From NCBI GenBank assembly GCA_028716265.1, contig JAQUQD010000004.1, positions 1-64,000 on the forward strand: 64,000 nucleotides of DNA, in the 5' to 3' direction. The position numbers and the translations under genes are program-made. The notes beneath the pieces are model-generated. The model did not search any database, was not told the DNA's origin, and saw nothing but the letters and a program-made list of their open reading frames with translations. This document shows positions 41,530 to 48,653 of this stretch, one piece after another (the stretch's first letter is position 1; every line of letters starts with the position of its first letter). Origin of the DNA: Bacteroidales bacterium. GTDB taxonomy: Bacteria; Bacteroidota; Bacteroidia; Bacteroidales; JAGONC01.

Positions 41530-44500
41530 ATGAACGACAACTATCAGTTTCTGATCCGCAAACTGGATCATTTTATCAGAAAATACTATAAAAATCAAAT
41601 CATCAGGGGTTTGATCTATAGTGTTGCCCTTGTTGCGCTGTTCTACCTGGTAGTCAGCCTTCTTGAATTTCTCGGTCATTTCGGGATGACGGTCCGCACC
41701 CTGCTCTTTTACGGATTTCTTGGCGCCATCCTGCTGGTGCTTGTTCGGCTCATCGTGATACCGACGTTCAAGCTGTTCAGGATTGGCAGGATCATCACAC
41801 GCGAGCAGGCAGCGGAGATCATCGGGAGTCATTTTCCTGAAGTACGGGATAAATTATTGAACACATTGCAACTGAGCCAGATGGAGGATGATTCCAACCG
41901 GGATCTGATCGAGGCCAGCGTTAACCAGAAAATACGGCAGCTCAAACCCGTTCCTTTCCATGCCGCCGTCAATATTCGAGAAAACAGGAAATATATCAAA
42001 TACGCGGTCGTGCCCCTTGGCGTGCTCCTGTTCATCCTGATTGCTTCTCCCAGCATGATCAAGGGACCCACCCAGAGGATCGTAAAGCATAACGTCTATT
42101 TCGAAAGGGAGCTCCCTTTTACAGTAATTGTTGAAAATCAAGAACTTAAAGCCTTGCGCAACACAGATTTCAAACTCTTGATCGGTGTTGCAGGGGATCA
42201 GATTCCTGAAATGTTTTTCCTGGAGATAGAAGGCCAGAGCCTGAAGCTGTCGCGTGAAACCAGCGGGCGCTTCAGCTATCTTTTCCGGAATATTCAGAAA
42301 AATGTCAGTTTCGTCATTACGGCTGACAGGTACCGTTCCGACAGGAAAGAGATCGTTGTCATTCCCAGCCCGGTCATCGGGCGGTTTGAGATAGATGTAT
42401 CACCTCCTTCCTATACGGGTAAGAAAAAGGAGGTGCTGGAAAATACCGGGGACCTGGTGGTATCCGAAGGAACAAGGCTTTCCTGGAAGTTCTTTACCAC
42501 AGATACGGATTCCCTTCGGTTTACCATTGAAGGCAACACCACCACCATCCCTCCGAAAAGCAACAACCTGTTTGTGGCTGATCATTCCTGTTTCCGCAGC
42601 TCCTATTATTCGGTCAGGACCATCAACCGGTACGTCCAGGATCCGGATTCCCTGTTTTATACAATTAACGTGATACCTGACCTGTATCCGACGATCCTGT
42701 GCGACGAATACCATGACACCCTTTTTGCCGGCAGGCTGTATTTCAGGGGAAACATAAAGGACGATTATGGTTTTACGCGGTTGCTTTTTCATTATGAAAG
42801 GAAAGGTTCGCAGGAAATCTGGGAGCATGCTGCCGATTCCGTTCAGCTGATTGCCATTAACCCCAGTCAGTCGCAGCAATCGTTCTACCATTTTTTTGAC
42901 GTTTCAACCCTGGTGCTTTCCCCTGGCGAGGAGATCGACTATTTTTTCGAGGTCTGGGATAACGATGGCGTCAATGGGAGCAAGTCAAGCCGCACACCGC
43001 GAATGACATTCAGGGCGCCATCGCTAGAAGAGATCGATCAGCAGGCCCAGGCTGCCAGTGAGTCCATCAAGAACGAGATGCAATCTGCCCTGATGGATCT
43101 GAAGGGCATGCAGAAAGAGATCGAAGAGCTTCACAAGAGCCTGATCGACAAGAAGAGCCTCAACTGGCAGGAACAGCAACAACTGGAACAACTTATACAA
43201 AAGCAGCAGTCCCTCCAGGACCGCATGGAAGAACTGAACCTGATGAACATGGAAAAATCGCTCAGGGAACAGCAATACAAGGAGGTAGATCCGGATGTCA
43301 TTGAAAAACAAAAAGAACTGGAGAAACTGTTTAACGAGATCCTGTCGGAAGATGTCAGAAAACTGTTTGAGGAGTTTCAGAAAATGATCGACGAAATGGA
43401 TAAGGAGAAGGTCAACGAGATGCTCGAAAAGATGAAATGGGCCAACGAAGACATTGAGGAGCAACTCGACAGAAGCTTTGAACTTTTTAAGAAGCTTGAG
43501 TTTGAAAAGAAGCTGGGAGAAACGATCAGTAAGCTCGATAAGTTGGCCGGGAAACAGGAAGATCTGTCGGAGGAAACCGACAAGAGCCGGGATGAAGAAT
43601 CCGGTAATTTGTTAAAGGAGCAGGAGGAAGTGGAGGAAGAATTCGAACAGATCAGCCAGGACCTCGATGAACTGGATCAGATGAACCAGGAACTGGAAGA
43701 TCCGAACCAGCTGGAGAATACCGATCAGCAGGAGGAGGATATCCGAAACGACATGCAACACAGCAAGAATGAGCTTTCCACGAAAAAGATGTCAAAAGCC
43801 TCCAAATCTCAGAAAAGTGCAGCCCAGAAGATGAAGAACCTAAGCAACAACCTGATGAACATGATGAACAGTATGATGTCGGATCAGCTTGGGGAAGACA
43901 TCTGGACCCTGCGCGAGATCCTGGAGAACCTGCTGCAGGTCTCATTTGACCAGGAGGACCTGATGGATGGGCTGAGGGTCGTCAACAGGAATGACCCGGT
44001 ATACAACCGCATTGTCCAGGATCAGAAAAAGCTCAGGGACGACCTGCTGATGATCGAGGACTCTCTTACGGCGCTGGGGAAGCGGCAGATTTCCATTAAG
44101 TCTGTTGTGCAGCGGGAGATCAATGAAATCAACGACAAGATATCAAGGACGCTGGAAGACCTTATCGATAAAGATATCAGCAACGCACAGATGAACCAGC
44201 AGTATGTGATGACCTCCGTTAACAACCTTGCCCTGTTGCTGTCAGAGGCACTTCAGAACATGCAGTCACAGATGAATCAGATGAGCCAGAATGCGGGAGG
44301 AGGAAGCTGTCCCAATCCGGGAATGGGAACCCCATCGATCAGCACGATGCGGCAGCTGCAGGAGCAGCTCAACAGGCAGCTCGAGCAAATGAAAAAGGGT
44401 ATGGACCAGGGAAAGGAGGGGCAAGGGATGCCTACCATGAGCGAACAGCTTGCACGGCTGGCCGCTCAGCAGGAAGCGCTTCGCAATCAGCTCCAGCAGT

Positions 44501-44862
44501 ACATGGACGAACTGAAGGAACAGGGTATCGGAGACGACGGCAGCATGAAGAAAATGCTTGAGGATATGGAGAAAACGGAGACGGAACTGGTGAACAAAAT
44601 GATCACCAATCAGACCCTGATGCGGCAGCAGGATATCCTGACACGGCTGCTGGAATCCGAGAAAGCCGAACGCATGCGGGAGATGGAAGAAAAGAGGGAA
44701 TCAAAGGAAAGTAAAAATCAAAAAATAAGTAACCCTGAAGAATTTTTTAAGTATAAAGGTATAAAAGACAATCAGACCGAAATCCTAAAGAGCATTCCAC
44801 CAGGCTTAAAACCCTTCTACAAAAGAAAAGTGAACGAATATTTATTTAACTTTGAAGACTGA
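41530..44862 (+). CDS. DUF4175 family protein, large coiled-coil membrane-anchored protein
   Basis: Two N-terminal TM helices, Ig-like middle, then ~500 aa Q/E/K/M-rich coiled coil ending with 'PEEFFKYKGIKDNQTEILKSIPPGLKPFYKRKVNEYLFNFED'. Confidence 0.75.
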   Translation: MNDNYQFLIRKLDHFIRKYYKNQIIRGLIYSVALVALFYLVVSLLEFLGHFGMTVRTLLFYGFLGAILLVLVRLIVIPTFKLFRIGRIITREQAAEIIGSHFPEVRDKLLNTLQLSQMEDDSNRDLIEASVNQKIRQLKPVPFHAAVNIRENRKYIKYAVVPLGVLLFILIASPSMIKGPTQRIVKHNVYFERELPFTVIVENQELKALRNTDFKLLIGVAGDQIPEMFFLEIEGQSLKLSRETSGRFSYLFRNIQKNVSFVITADRYRSDRKEIVVIPSPVIGRFEIDVSPPSYTGKKKEVLENTGDLVVSEGTRLSWKFFTTDTDSLRFTIEGNTTTIPPKSNNLFVADHSCFRSSYYSVRTINRYVQDPDSLFYTINVIPDLYPTILCDEYHDTLFAGRLYFRGNIKDDYGFTRLLFHYERKGSQEIWEHAADSVQLIAINPSQSQQSFYHFFDVSTLVLSPGEEIDYFFEVWDNDGVNGSKSSRTPRMTFRAPSLEEIDQQAQAASESIKNEMQSALMDLKGMQKEIEELHKSLIDKKSLNWQEQQQLEQLIQKQQSLQDRMEELNLMNMEKSLREQQYKEVDPDVIEKQKELEKLFNEILSEDVRKLFEEFQKMIDEMDKEKVNEMLEKMKWANEDIEEQLDRSFELFKKLEFEKKLGETISKLDKLAGKQEDLSEETDKSRDEESGNLLKEQEEVEEEFEQISQDLDELDQMNQELEDPNQLENTDQQEEDIRNDMQHSKNELSTKKMSKASKSQKSAAQKMKNLSNNLMNMMNSMMSDQLGEDIWTLREILENLLQVSFDQEDLMDGLRVVNRNDPVYNRIVQDQKKLRDDLLMIEDSLTALGKRQISIKSVVQREINEINDKISRTLEDLIDKDISNAQMNQQYVMTSVNNLALLLSEALQNMQSQMNQMSQNAGGGSCPNPGMGTPSISTMRQLQEQLNRQLEQMKKGMDQGKEGQGMPTMSEQLARLAAQQEALRNQLQQYMDELKEQGIGDDGSMKKMLEDMEKTETELVNKMITNQTLMRQQDILTRLLESEKAERMREMEEKRESKESKNQKISNPEEFFKYKGIKDNQTEILKSIPPGLKPFYKRKVNEYLFNFED

Positions 44863-44873
44863 TCCGAGGACAT

Positions 44874-45374
44874 ATGAGATTTGAACGGTTAGCCATCAGG
44901 ATTCCTTCAGGCATGAAATACATTCACCTGGTGGAACAGTTTATTGAAGAGATCTGCGACAGGTACAACATTGGGATGGATTATTACGGTAACATTGCTG
45001 CCGCCGTGATGGAGGCTGTTGAAAACAGCATTATCCATGGCAACGGATTACAGGAAGATAAAATGATCGATCTTCTTTTTGAGGCCAAGCCCGGCAGGCT
45101 GATCTTTCAGATCCAGGACAAAGGCGACGGATTCGATGTGAACAAGATCACCGATCCGACGGATACCAACCAGCCTTCCTCCGAACTTGAGGGACGCGGG
45201 CTGTTTATCATCCGGCGGCTGGCCGACGAAGTCCATTTCAACGAGAAAGGCAACTGCATCAAGCTTCATTTCAAGATCAGCGGAATCCGTGAAGCCGTAA
45301 ATATTGACCGCCAGAAGAAGATGGAGTCGTTCAAGAAGACAGAAAAGAAGCCTTCACACGAGGAAAATAGATAA
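44874..45374 (+). CDS. ATP-binding protein, RsbW-like anti-sigma/serine kinase (HATPase) family
   Basis: 'NIAAAVMEAVENSIIHGN', 'IFQIQDKGDGFDVNKI', 'EGRGLFIIRRLADEVHFN'. Confidence 0.88.
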   Translation: MRFERLAIRIPSGMKYIHLVEQFIEEICDRYNIGMDYYGNIAAAVMEAVENSIIHGNGLQEDKMIDLLFEAKPGRLIFQIQDKGDGFDVNKITDPTDTNQPSSELEGRGLFIIRRLADEVHFNEKGNCIKLHFKISGIREAVNIDRQKKMESFKKTEKKPSHEENR

Positions 45375-45387
45375 TCCACCGGCGGTT

Positions 45388-45825
45388 ATGGAAGATCAAA
45401 AGATCCACTTCTTTCATGAAGGCATTGATTATCAGCTTAAAAACAAAACCACACTGCGTCAATGGATCGATATGGTCATCACCATGGAGCACGAAGAATA
45501 CCATGATGTCAACATCATCCTGTGTTCCGACGAATTCTTAAACCAGCTGAGCCTCACCTATCTTTCCCAGGATCATTTCACCGATGTGATGACCTTTGAC
45601 TTTTCGGAAGGCGATCAGGTTGTATCGGGGGATATTTACATCAGCCTGCCCAGGGTAAGAGAGAACGCAAATAAATACGCAAGTTATCTCAAAGACGAAA
45701 TACACAGGGTGATCATTCACGGCATCCTGCATCTGTCGGGCTATAATGACAAACGGCCCAGGGACAGACACCGGATGACCGAAAAGGAAAATCTTTACCT
45801 ATCTTTACGCCCGAAAGGACTCTGA
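45388..45825 (+). CDS. ybeY: rRNA maturation RNase YbeY
   Basis: 'LTYLSQDHFTDVMTFDF', 'GDIYISLPRVRENA', 'IHRVIIHGILHLSGYNDK'. Start placed at ATG 45388. Confidence 0.92.
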   Translation: MEDQKIHFFHEGIDYQLKNKTTLRQWIDMVITMEHEEYHDVNIILCSDEFLNQLSLTYLSQDHFTDVMTFDFSEGDQVVSGDIYISLPRVRENANKYASYLKDEIHRVIIHGILHLSGYNDKRPRDRHRMTEKENLYLSLRPKGL

Positions 45826-45831
45826 AGTCCT

Positions 45832-45847
45832 TGTTTCACGTGAAACA
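45832..45847. other. parS: parS centromere-like site (TGTTTCACGTGAAACA)
   Basis: Exact 16-bp palindrome identical to the ParB/Spo0J parS consensus; located between ybeY and mnmG. Confidence 0.92.
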
Positions 45848-45857
45848 TTCCGGTGCT

Positions 45858-47729
45858 ATGTCTGGTGAATATGATGTCATTGTTGTCGGAGGAGGCCATG
45901 CAGGCTGTGAGGCCGCTGCTGCAGCCGCACGCATGGGTTCCCGTGTGCTGCTGATCACCATGGGCATGACCACCATCGCCCAGATGAGCTGTAATCCCGC
46001 CATGGGAGGTATCGCCAAAGGACAGATCGTCAGGGAGATCGACGCCCTTGGTGGCTTTTCAGGGATCGTCACCGACCGGACCATGATTCAGTTCCGGATG
46101 CTCAACCGTTCCAAGGGCCCCGCCATGTGGAGCCCCAGGGCCCAGAGCGACCGCGCCCTCTTTTCCAGGGAATGGCGTCACGTGCTGGAAAGCATCCCTA
46201 CCCTTTTCTTTCGAGAAGATATGGTGACTGGTCTGGTTTGCACTGACCATCAGGTGAAGGGCGTGACCACCCAGATGGGACAAACCATCTATTCCAGGGC
46301 GGTCATCCTTACCAACGGAACCTTTCTCAATGGCGTGATCCATATTGGCGAAAGCCATTGGGAGGGAGGACGGATCGGTGAAAGAGCAGTGCGGTGCCTG
46401 ACCGAAAACCTGGTTAGCCTGGGTTTTGAAACGGACCGGATGAAAACAGGTACCCCTGTCCGACTGGATGGACGCACCATTGATTATTCAAAACTCGAGG
46501 AACAGAAAGGAGATGACGTACCGGGCCGATTTTCATTTACGGACACCCCCCCGCTGAACCGTCAGCGCAGTTGTTACCTTGCCTGGACAAATGAAAAAGT
46601 GCATGCCGTCCTGCGGACCGGATTCGACAGGTCCCCTCTGTTCGTAGGCCGGATAAAAGGAATCGGGCCAAGATACTGTCCCTCCATCGAAGACAAAATC
46701 GAACGGTTCAGCGATAAGCTCTCTCATCAGCTGTTTGTGGAACCGGAGGGGTGGGATACCGTTGAGGTCTACCTGAACGGTTTTTCATCTTCATTGCCGG
46801 AAGATGTTCAATACAATGCCCTGCGGCTCATTGAGGGCTTTGAAAACGTAAAGATCTTCCGCCCGGGATATGCCATTGAATATGATTATTTTCCCCCGGT
46901 ACAGCTACAGGGTTCTCTTGAGACCAAACGGATCAGGCATCTCTTTTTTGCAGGCCAGATCAACGGCACCACCGGATACGAAGAAGCCGCCGCACAGGGG
47001 ATCATGGCAGGCATCAACGCTCACCTCAGGATCAACGGACAATCCGAATGCATCCTTAAGCGCTCCGAAGCATACATCGGCGTCCTGATCGACGATCTGA
47101 TCACCAAAGGAGTAGATGAGCCTTACCGGATGTTCACCTCACGGGCAGAATACCGGATATTGCTGCGACAGGATAATGCCGACCAACGCCTGACACCGCT
47201 TGCTTTCCGGCTTGGACTGGCAGGCCCTGACCGTATGCAGCGCCTGGAACAAAAGACCGGGAACATCGGCAGGCTCCGGAAATTTCTTTTTACCTCCAGT
47301 GTTGCACCCGATGAGGTCAACGCCTACCTGGCCCTGGGCAATTCAGCCCCGCTGGATCAAAGCGTGAAAATGGCTTCCCTGCTTCTGCGTCCCCAGGTCA
47401 GCATACAGGGATTGCAGTCATGCCTTCCCTCCCTTCGGGAGTTTGTTCAAAAAATGGGATCCTGCGGACCGGAAGTTATGGAAGAAACGGAGATCATGAT
47501 CAAATACGAGGGTTATATCAGCAGGGAAGAAGAAATGGCCTACCACCTGTCGAAGGTGGATGATATCTTTCTCAAGGATACGATCGACTATCATTCAATA
47601 AATGCGCTTTCTTTTGAAGCCAGGGAAAAACTGAACAAAATCCGGCCCAGGACCATCGGCCAGGCTTCCAGGATACCCGGGGTTTCTCCGGCAGATATAT
47701 CCGTATTACTCGTCTTTTTAAGAAGATAA
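45858..47729 (+). CDS. mnmG: tRNA uridine-5-carboxymethylaminomethyl(34) synthesis enzyme MnmG (GidA)
   Basis: 'YDVIVVGGGHAGCEAAAAAARMG', 'CNPAMGGIAKGQIVREIDALGG', 'GTFLNGVIHIG', 'TGTPVRLDGRTID', 'TGYEEAAAQGIMAGINA', C-terminal 'ASRIPGVSPADISVLLVFL'. ATG 45858 preferred over TTG 45831, which would translate parS (MFHVKH). Confidence 0.97.
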   Translation: MSGEYDVIVVGGGHAGCEAAAAAARMGSRVLLITMGMTTIAQMSCNPAMGGIAKGQIVREIDALGGFSGIVTDRTMIQFRMLNRSKGPAMWSPRAQSDRALFSREWRHVLESIPTLFFREDMVTGLVCTDHQVKGVTTQMGQTIYSRAVILTNGTFLNGVIHIGESHWEGGRIGERAVRCLTENLVSLGFETDRMKTGTPVRLDGRTIDYSKLEEQKGDDVPGRFSFTDTPPLNRQRSCYLAWTNEKVHAVLRTGFDRSPLFVGRIKGIGPRYCPSIEDKIERFSDKLSHQLFVEPEGWDTVEVYLNGFSSSLPEDVQYNALRLIEGFENVKIFRPGYAIEYDYFPPVQLQGSLETKRIRHLFFAGQINGTTGYEEAAAQGIMAGINAHLRINGQSECILKRSEAYIGVLIDDLITKGVDEPYRMFTSRAEYRILLRQDNADQRLTPLAFRLGLAGPDRMQRLEQKTGNIGRLRKFLFTSSVAPDEVNAYLALGNSAPLDQSVKMASLLLRPQVSIQGLQSCLPSLREFVQKMGSCGPEVMEETEIMIKYEGYISREEEMAYHLSKVDDIFLKDTIDYHSINALSFEAREKLNKIRPRTIGQASRIPGVSPADISVLLVFLRR

Positions 47730-47734
47730 CCATA

Positions 47735-47750
47735 CGTTCCACGTGAAACA
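47735..47750. other. parS: Second parS-like site (CGTTCCACGTGAAACA)
   Basis: 14/16 to the perfect site; the only outer mismatch is base 1, and position 5 is a known variable position (TGTTNCACGTGAAACA). Lies between mnmG stop and next ATG. Confidence 0.8.
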
Positions 47751-47756
47751 CTACCT

Positions 47757-48653
47757 ATGAAAACGATCACAGCCTGTCCCGTCTGCCTGTCGCTGCTTCC
47801 GGATCCGATAATGGACATCCGTGATCATTTTCTGACCGGCGAAACGTTCCACCTGATGAAATGCCAGCGATGCGGCTGTGGGGTGACAGACCCGTGGCCA
47901 GAAGGACAGGAAATGAACAGGTATTACCGGACAGAGGATTACATTTCCCATTCTTCCTCACCCAAAGGGATCATCAATAAACTTTACCTTCTTATCCGAA
48001 CCTTCACCCTGCGGAAAAAATACAGGTTGGTGTGCCGTATCACCGGCTGTTCAAGGGGATCGATTCTGGATGTGGGTTGCGGATCGGGAGAACTGCTGCA
48101 TCTGTTCAGTAAGAAGCAATGGGTCGCCTTCGGGATAGAACCTGATGAAAATACGCGAAACAAAGCCATCGCCAGATACCGCCTCCAGGTTGGGGACAGC
48201 GGTTCCCTGCAGGATTTGTTGCCCGGGACGTTCCATGTGATCACATGCTGGCACTCACTCGAGCATATCGCCCTTCTTTCGGAAACACTCCATCAACTCA
48301 GGCGGATCCTTGCCCCGGACGGCACCCTGATCGTAGCCGTTCCCAACCATGATTCAAGGGATGCCATGATCTACGGCCCGTTCTGGGCCGCATGGGATAT
48401 GCCAAGACACCTCCTCCATTTTACCCGCACCGCCATGGAGACATTGATGAAACAACATCACTTCCGGATCATTGAAACACTACCGCTGAAAATGGATGCG
48501 TATTATATCAGCATGCTGAGCGAGAAGTACAAATCCGGGAAAATCCATTATGTACGGGCGCTTGCGAACGGATACCGATCCAACCGTTACGCCCGTGCCA
48601 ATAAAAATACCTATTCCAGCCTGATCTATGTTTTGAAACAGGAAAATGCGTAA
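47757..48653 (+). CDS. Class I SAM-dependent methyltransferase with N-terminal zinc-ribbon-like Cys pairs
   Basis: 'ACPVCLSLLPDP...MKCQRCGCGVTDPWP' Cys pairs; 'SILDVGCGSGELLHLFSKKQWVAFGIEPDE', 'HVITCWHSLEHI'. Confidence 0.88.
   Translation: MKTITACPVCLSLLPDPIMDIRDHFLTGETFHLMKCQRCGCGVTDPWPEGQEMNRYYRTEDYISHSSSPKGIINKLYLLIRTFTLRKKYRLVCRITGCSRGSILDVGCGSGELLHLFSKKQWVAFGIEPDENTRNKAIARYRLQVGDSGSLQDLLPGTFHVITCWHSLEHIALLSETLHQLRRILAPDGTLIVAVPNHDSRDAMIYGPFWAAWDMPRHLLHFTRTAMETLMKQHHFRIIETLPLKMDAYYISMLSEKYKSGKIHYVRALANGYRSNRYARANKNTYSSLIYVLKQENA

Follow-up and report, generated by a model that had tools for sequence, protein, structure and literature searches.

Paired parS sites on both sides of mnmG in a Bacteroidales genome, at a locus conserved across Bacteroidota

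Why does a 16-bp palindrome fill the short gap in front of mnmG in a Bacteroidales bacterium, and does it serve that gene or the chromosome? When the window (the whole stretch of 64,000 nucleotides that was analysed) was examined, the original prediction of an exact ParB/Spo0J parS palindrome just before mnmG was confirmed, as site 1 (Table 1) matches the palindromic consensus TGTTNCACGTGAAACA over the complete 16-mer. The prediction was in fact understated, since it had missed a second core behind the gene. This site 2 has one mismatch in the 16-mer and an exact 14-bp core (GTTNCACGTGNAAC). Site 1 lies in the 32 bp that separate the ybeY stop (45825) from the mnmG ATG (45858), 6 bp past the former and 10 bp ahead of the latter. 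Site 2 lies 5 bp past the mnmG stop and 6 bp ahead of the next gene.

Table 1 Predicted parS sites and neighbouring genes in the window
Feature	Position	Strand	Basis and remarks
DUF4175-like large protein, conserved neighbour	41530..44862	+	PF13779; synteny
RsbW-like HATPase, conserved neighbour	44874..45374	+	PF13581; synteny
ybeY (rRNA maturation RNase), conserved neighbour on the upstream side	45388..45825	+	TIGR00043, 98 bits; synteny
parS site 1 (TGTTTCACGTGAAACA)	45832..45847	.	Between ybeY and mnmG; exact consensus; conserved upstream of mnmG in relatives
mnmG (tRNA uridine-5-carboxymethylaminomethyl synthesis enzyme)	45858..47729	+	TIGR00136, 809.8 bits; start ATG 45858 by comparison
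parS site 2 (CGTTCCACGTGAAACA)	47735..47750	.	Directly 3' of mnmG; a site in this position is conserved in Bacteroidales and Flavobacteriales
SAM methyltransferase, often the next gene downstream	47757..48653	+	PF13489; synteny

When the whole assembly (3,086,416 bases, or 3.09 Mb, in 166 contigs; draft, 99.6 % complete) was scanned, two exact GTTNCACGTGNAAC cores were found, both at mnmG within 1.9 kb of each other and none elsewhere. This is the clustering expected of chromosomal parS sites, which the original prediction had proposed as its test, and not a scatter. A scan allowing one mismatch gave three further matches compared with nine for a reversed-pattern control, and these additional cores were thus regarded as noise. 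Base composition predicts 1.6e-5 occurrences of the 16-mer per 64 kb and 0.0008 per genome. The core itself is short, with 0.18 copies expected per genome, so that chance palindromes or an assembly repeat might be proposed. However, the presence of two copies within 1.9 kb and their recurrence at this position throughout the phylum reduce the probability of this explanation to almost nothing, and conservation had already refuted it.

Among 299 genomes spread over the phylum, 277 contained at least one parS core, and the commonest count was two. At 80 named mnmG loci (Bacteroidota-type records; ≤700 bp upstream or ≤300 bp downstream of mnmG), the exact core was found beside mnmG in 54, including 28 with a core on both sides, and the number rose to 65 when one mismatch was allowed. 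None of 199 palindromes made from shuffled half-sites occurs at these 80 loci, and the reversed core is also absent. A further set of genomes had parS beside mnmG in 24 of 30. The usual order at the locus is DUF4175-like gene, HATPase gene, ybeY, (parS), mnmG, (parS) and methyltransferase gene. When a MnmG tree was drawn for 111 loci, the layout of the sites proved to be deeply inherited, and the downstream state requires six changes. Bracketing or downstream sites belong to Bacteroidales and Flavobacteriales, upstream-only sites to the Chitinophaga, Sphingobacteria and Cytophaga groups, and Saprospiria have no parS at mnmG. By sequence comparison, parS at mnmG is a deeply conserved putative marker of the chromosome's replication-origin region.

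Some loci carry other arrangements. The Flavobacterium locus L076 (4801-5912) has a parS array upstream of mnmG, in which four degenerate copies (TGTTCCACATGGAACA) are approximately 117 bp apart. An exact core is located within the mnmG coding region in a few loci (L063 2322; L053 1523; G017:C1:1086926). Two related gut Bacteroidales (L044 and L080) have a drifted downstream site in common, GTTTCACGAGGAAC, which possibly reflects a changed ParB specificity.

The location of site 1 in the 5' leader of mnmG raises the question of whether the palindromes act as operators or leader elements and regulate this gene through an ordinary transcription factor or RNA hairpins, and the leader RNA does fold better than its shuffled versions (z -2.6). 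However, site 2 comes after mnmG and shows no RNA folding (z 0.43), and both the distance and the frame between site and mnmG vary among loci. Saprospiria also speak against regulation, as their sites are flanked by unrelated genes and mnmG is found in another place. In most of those checked, paired parS sites were observed away from mnmG, in a block consisting of ybeY, thrA, thrB, thrC and parS from which mnmG is gone; in locus L252 the block is DUF4175-like gene, HATPase gene, ybeY and two parS sites. Because parS stays with the ybeY side after mnmG has left, a regulatory role at mnmG is argued against. We therefore consider mnmG regulation very unlikely and conclude that the parS sites go with the chromosomal locus rather than serving mnmG.

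A chromosomal parS calls for a cognate ParB and ParA (ParABS), and both are encoded in the genome; the original prediction had held that a lack of parAB would speak against it. One ParB-family protein over the cut-off was found in the genome, on contig C5, where the ParA gene adjoins the ParB gene; the parS sites are on another contig (C4), and DnaA is encoded on contig C17. This ParB contains the ParB_N, HTH_ParB and ParB_C domains (N-terminal, HTH and dimerisation) and retains the GERR CTP motif. Its matches to ParB, Spo0J and Noc chains of solved structure have E-values of about 1e-50. Another explanation is that the sites serve a Noc-like nucleoid-occlusion paralogue of ParB and not segregation. 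The genome's own ParB does score 226 bits against the Noc model, but this is below the 315-bit cut-off. No Noc protein over the cut-off was found in the genome, and the single ParB-family protein leaves no paralogue above threshold. In the alignments it carries R and G at two specificity positions where Noc has Q and R. The motif at mnmG is parS and not the Noc site, which counts against the nucleoid-occlusion explanation as well, and it was judged extremely improbable.

The exact consensus, the pairing of the sites, their uniqueness in the genome, the single canonical ParAB and the phylum-wide conservation at the locus all agree with the ParB/Spo0J identity that had been proposed. The two palindromes are thus very probably the chromosomal parS loading sites of this bacterium's ParABS system, and not controls of mnmG. 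As the ParABS mechanism is established elsewhere, its steps can be transferred to this genome conditionally. ParB would bind each parS site and close as a CTP-dependent clamp; the clamps would then slide into the flanking DNA, across mnmG, to form a partition complex, and ParA would move the partition complexes, or sister origins, apart after replication. The gaps flanking mnmG probably hold the sites because this locus is an ancestral landmark of the origin region in Bacteroidota, and the sites do not control the gene.

Proximity to the origin was analyzed using GC skew. In the single-contig genomes of three relatives (G119, G271 and G207), the strand-corrected third-position skew changes sign from negative to positive at the mnmG/parS locus or close to it, and the reverse switch (terminus) is located about half a genome away, with a noisy signal close to parS in G207. 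In G239, a member of the same order, some 25-30 kb separate the switch from parS; the distance is within about 30-70 kb in G103, and about 20-65 kb in G119 when finer slices were used. Over five relatives (four of them complete genomes), the distance from parS to the skew change is about 0-70 kb. Since parS and the change point are some tens of kb apart in G239, G119 and G103, parS is a marker of the origin region, not of oriC itself. No cluster of DnaA boxes was found in the 72 kb of contig C4, and none convincing was found around the skew switch in the relatives. dnaA and parB are roughly 0.7-1.4 Mb round the circle from the mnmG/parS locus in G119, G271 and G207, and in the records of G119, G103 and G171, which begin with dnaA at base 1, parS is about 1.0-1.6 Mb away.

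These distances can be set beside the report that oriC is commonly distant from dnaA in Bacteroidetes (PMC4755523). In two Bacteroidetes, B. caecimuris and M. intestinale, Hi-C and coverage showed the origin to be marked by clusters of parS (PMC10197239). Two reports place oriC at mnmG in the Flavobacteriaceae Mariniflexile (PMC11278836) and Algorimicrobium (PMC12843772), using Ori-Finder and GC skew. In the genome under study, unlike the five sampled relatives, almost no replication-strand skew was detected in 20 slices (contigs C1-C17, strand-corrected) or along C4, and skew over the window gave no usable signal. With a skew this weak, origin proximity here rests on synteny. The origin-proximal contig of the original prediction is therefore suggested by the syntenic skew flips of the relatives and the published oriC at mnmG, and its own near-zero skew gives no signal.

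The paired parS at mnmG is a well-preserved example of a known feature. It shares with the chromosomal parS of B. subtilis Spo0J and C. crescentus ParB the same 16-bp palindrome, clustered sites, a canonical ParB and ParA, and a locus near the skew transition, the last observed here in relatives. It differs in that the sites are linked neither to parAB nor to dnaA (about 1 Mb away in complete relatives), in that the sites bracket mnmG, and in that no SMC-ScpAB was detected in the genome. In Firmicutes and Gammaproteobacteria, the gene order of the origin region is mnmG-rsmG-parAB. The closeness of mnmG to parS, and probably to the origin, is common to that region and the present one, but here parAB is no longer beside mnmG, and ybeY and the DUF4175-like gene are its neighbours. 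The same locus was taken as oriC in Mariniflexile (PMC11278836) and Algorimicrobium (PMC12843772), whereas the available portions of these accounts cover two Flavobacteriaceae only and make no connection to parS. As a sequence landmark, parS/mnmG may be used for the Bacteroidota origin region where dnaA misleads, and the exact sites are now named for work on ParB in a phylum with little-studied segregation machinery.

A search for SMC and ScpB in this 99.6 % complete genome found no SMC over the cut-off (best 28 bits) and no ScpB. The sites thus have no detected SMC-ScpAB to recruit, as an SMC-loading parS would; its presence does not define parS itself. ScpB is missing in 28 of 199 genomes of the phylum. 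The sites raise the question of what the ParB-parS complex does in genomes that lack SMC-ScpAB, and of whether ParB recruits something else there. An exact downstream site was found in none of 20 genomes with SMC compared with 9 of 11 without it. Among 30 genomes, the SMC-bearing families f4, f7 and f10 have no exact downstream site (G049 has one with a single mismatch). Of the SMC-less families, f6, like the genome under study, has parS on both sides of mnmG, f2 has one site only, downstream of mnmG, and f11 lacks a downstream site and is a counter-example. In two f11 genomes (L261 and L263), parS is located about 27 kb from mnmG, adjoining a small HTH gene and near a RecF-like gene.

It might be proposed that SMC-less Bacteroidales and Flavobacteriales split parS into two loading sites bracketing mnmG while their SMC-bearing sisters keep a one-sided tandem, the bracket being an altered partition-complex design for condensin-free segregation. 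We regard this as rather doubtful. The correlation draws on few independent events, and f11 does not fit a simple link. As the bracket comes close to a single deep split on the tree, with f11 as an exception, common descent alone may explain it. The mnmG bracket and its overlap with the SMC-less clade may be new to the literature; no description of mnmG-bracketing parS was found there, which is weak evidence of novelty because subscription papers were outside the coverage.

The start of MnmG was also compared. TTG 45831 opens a reading frame which translates site 1 as MFHVKH, and this extension was rejected as an artefact, as the frame between parS and start is not conserved. The nearest upstream parS falls in all three frames relative to the mnmG start (22, 15 and 14 of 51 loci, the window's locus included), and an in-frame TGA is present within the site in 22 of the 51, when the site has the A-type right arm. 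MnmG of relatives starts 10-13 codons ahead of the GGGHAGCEA motif, and the equivalent in the window is ATG 45858. The N-terminal comparison advised in the original prediction thus favours its canonical start, ATG 45858, over TTG 45831. An inverted repeat (AAGGACT-CTGA-AGTCCTT, 45816-45834) was also observed, overlapping the ybeY stop and abutting parS site 1.
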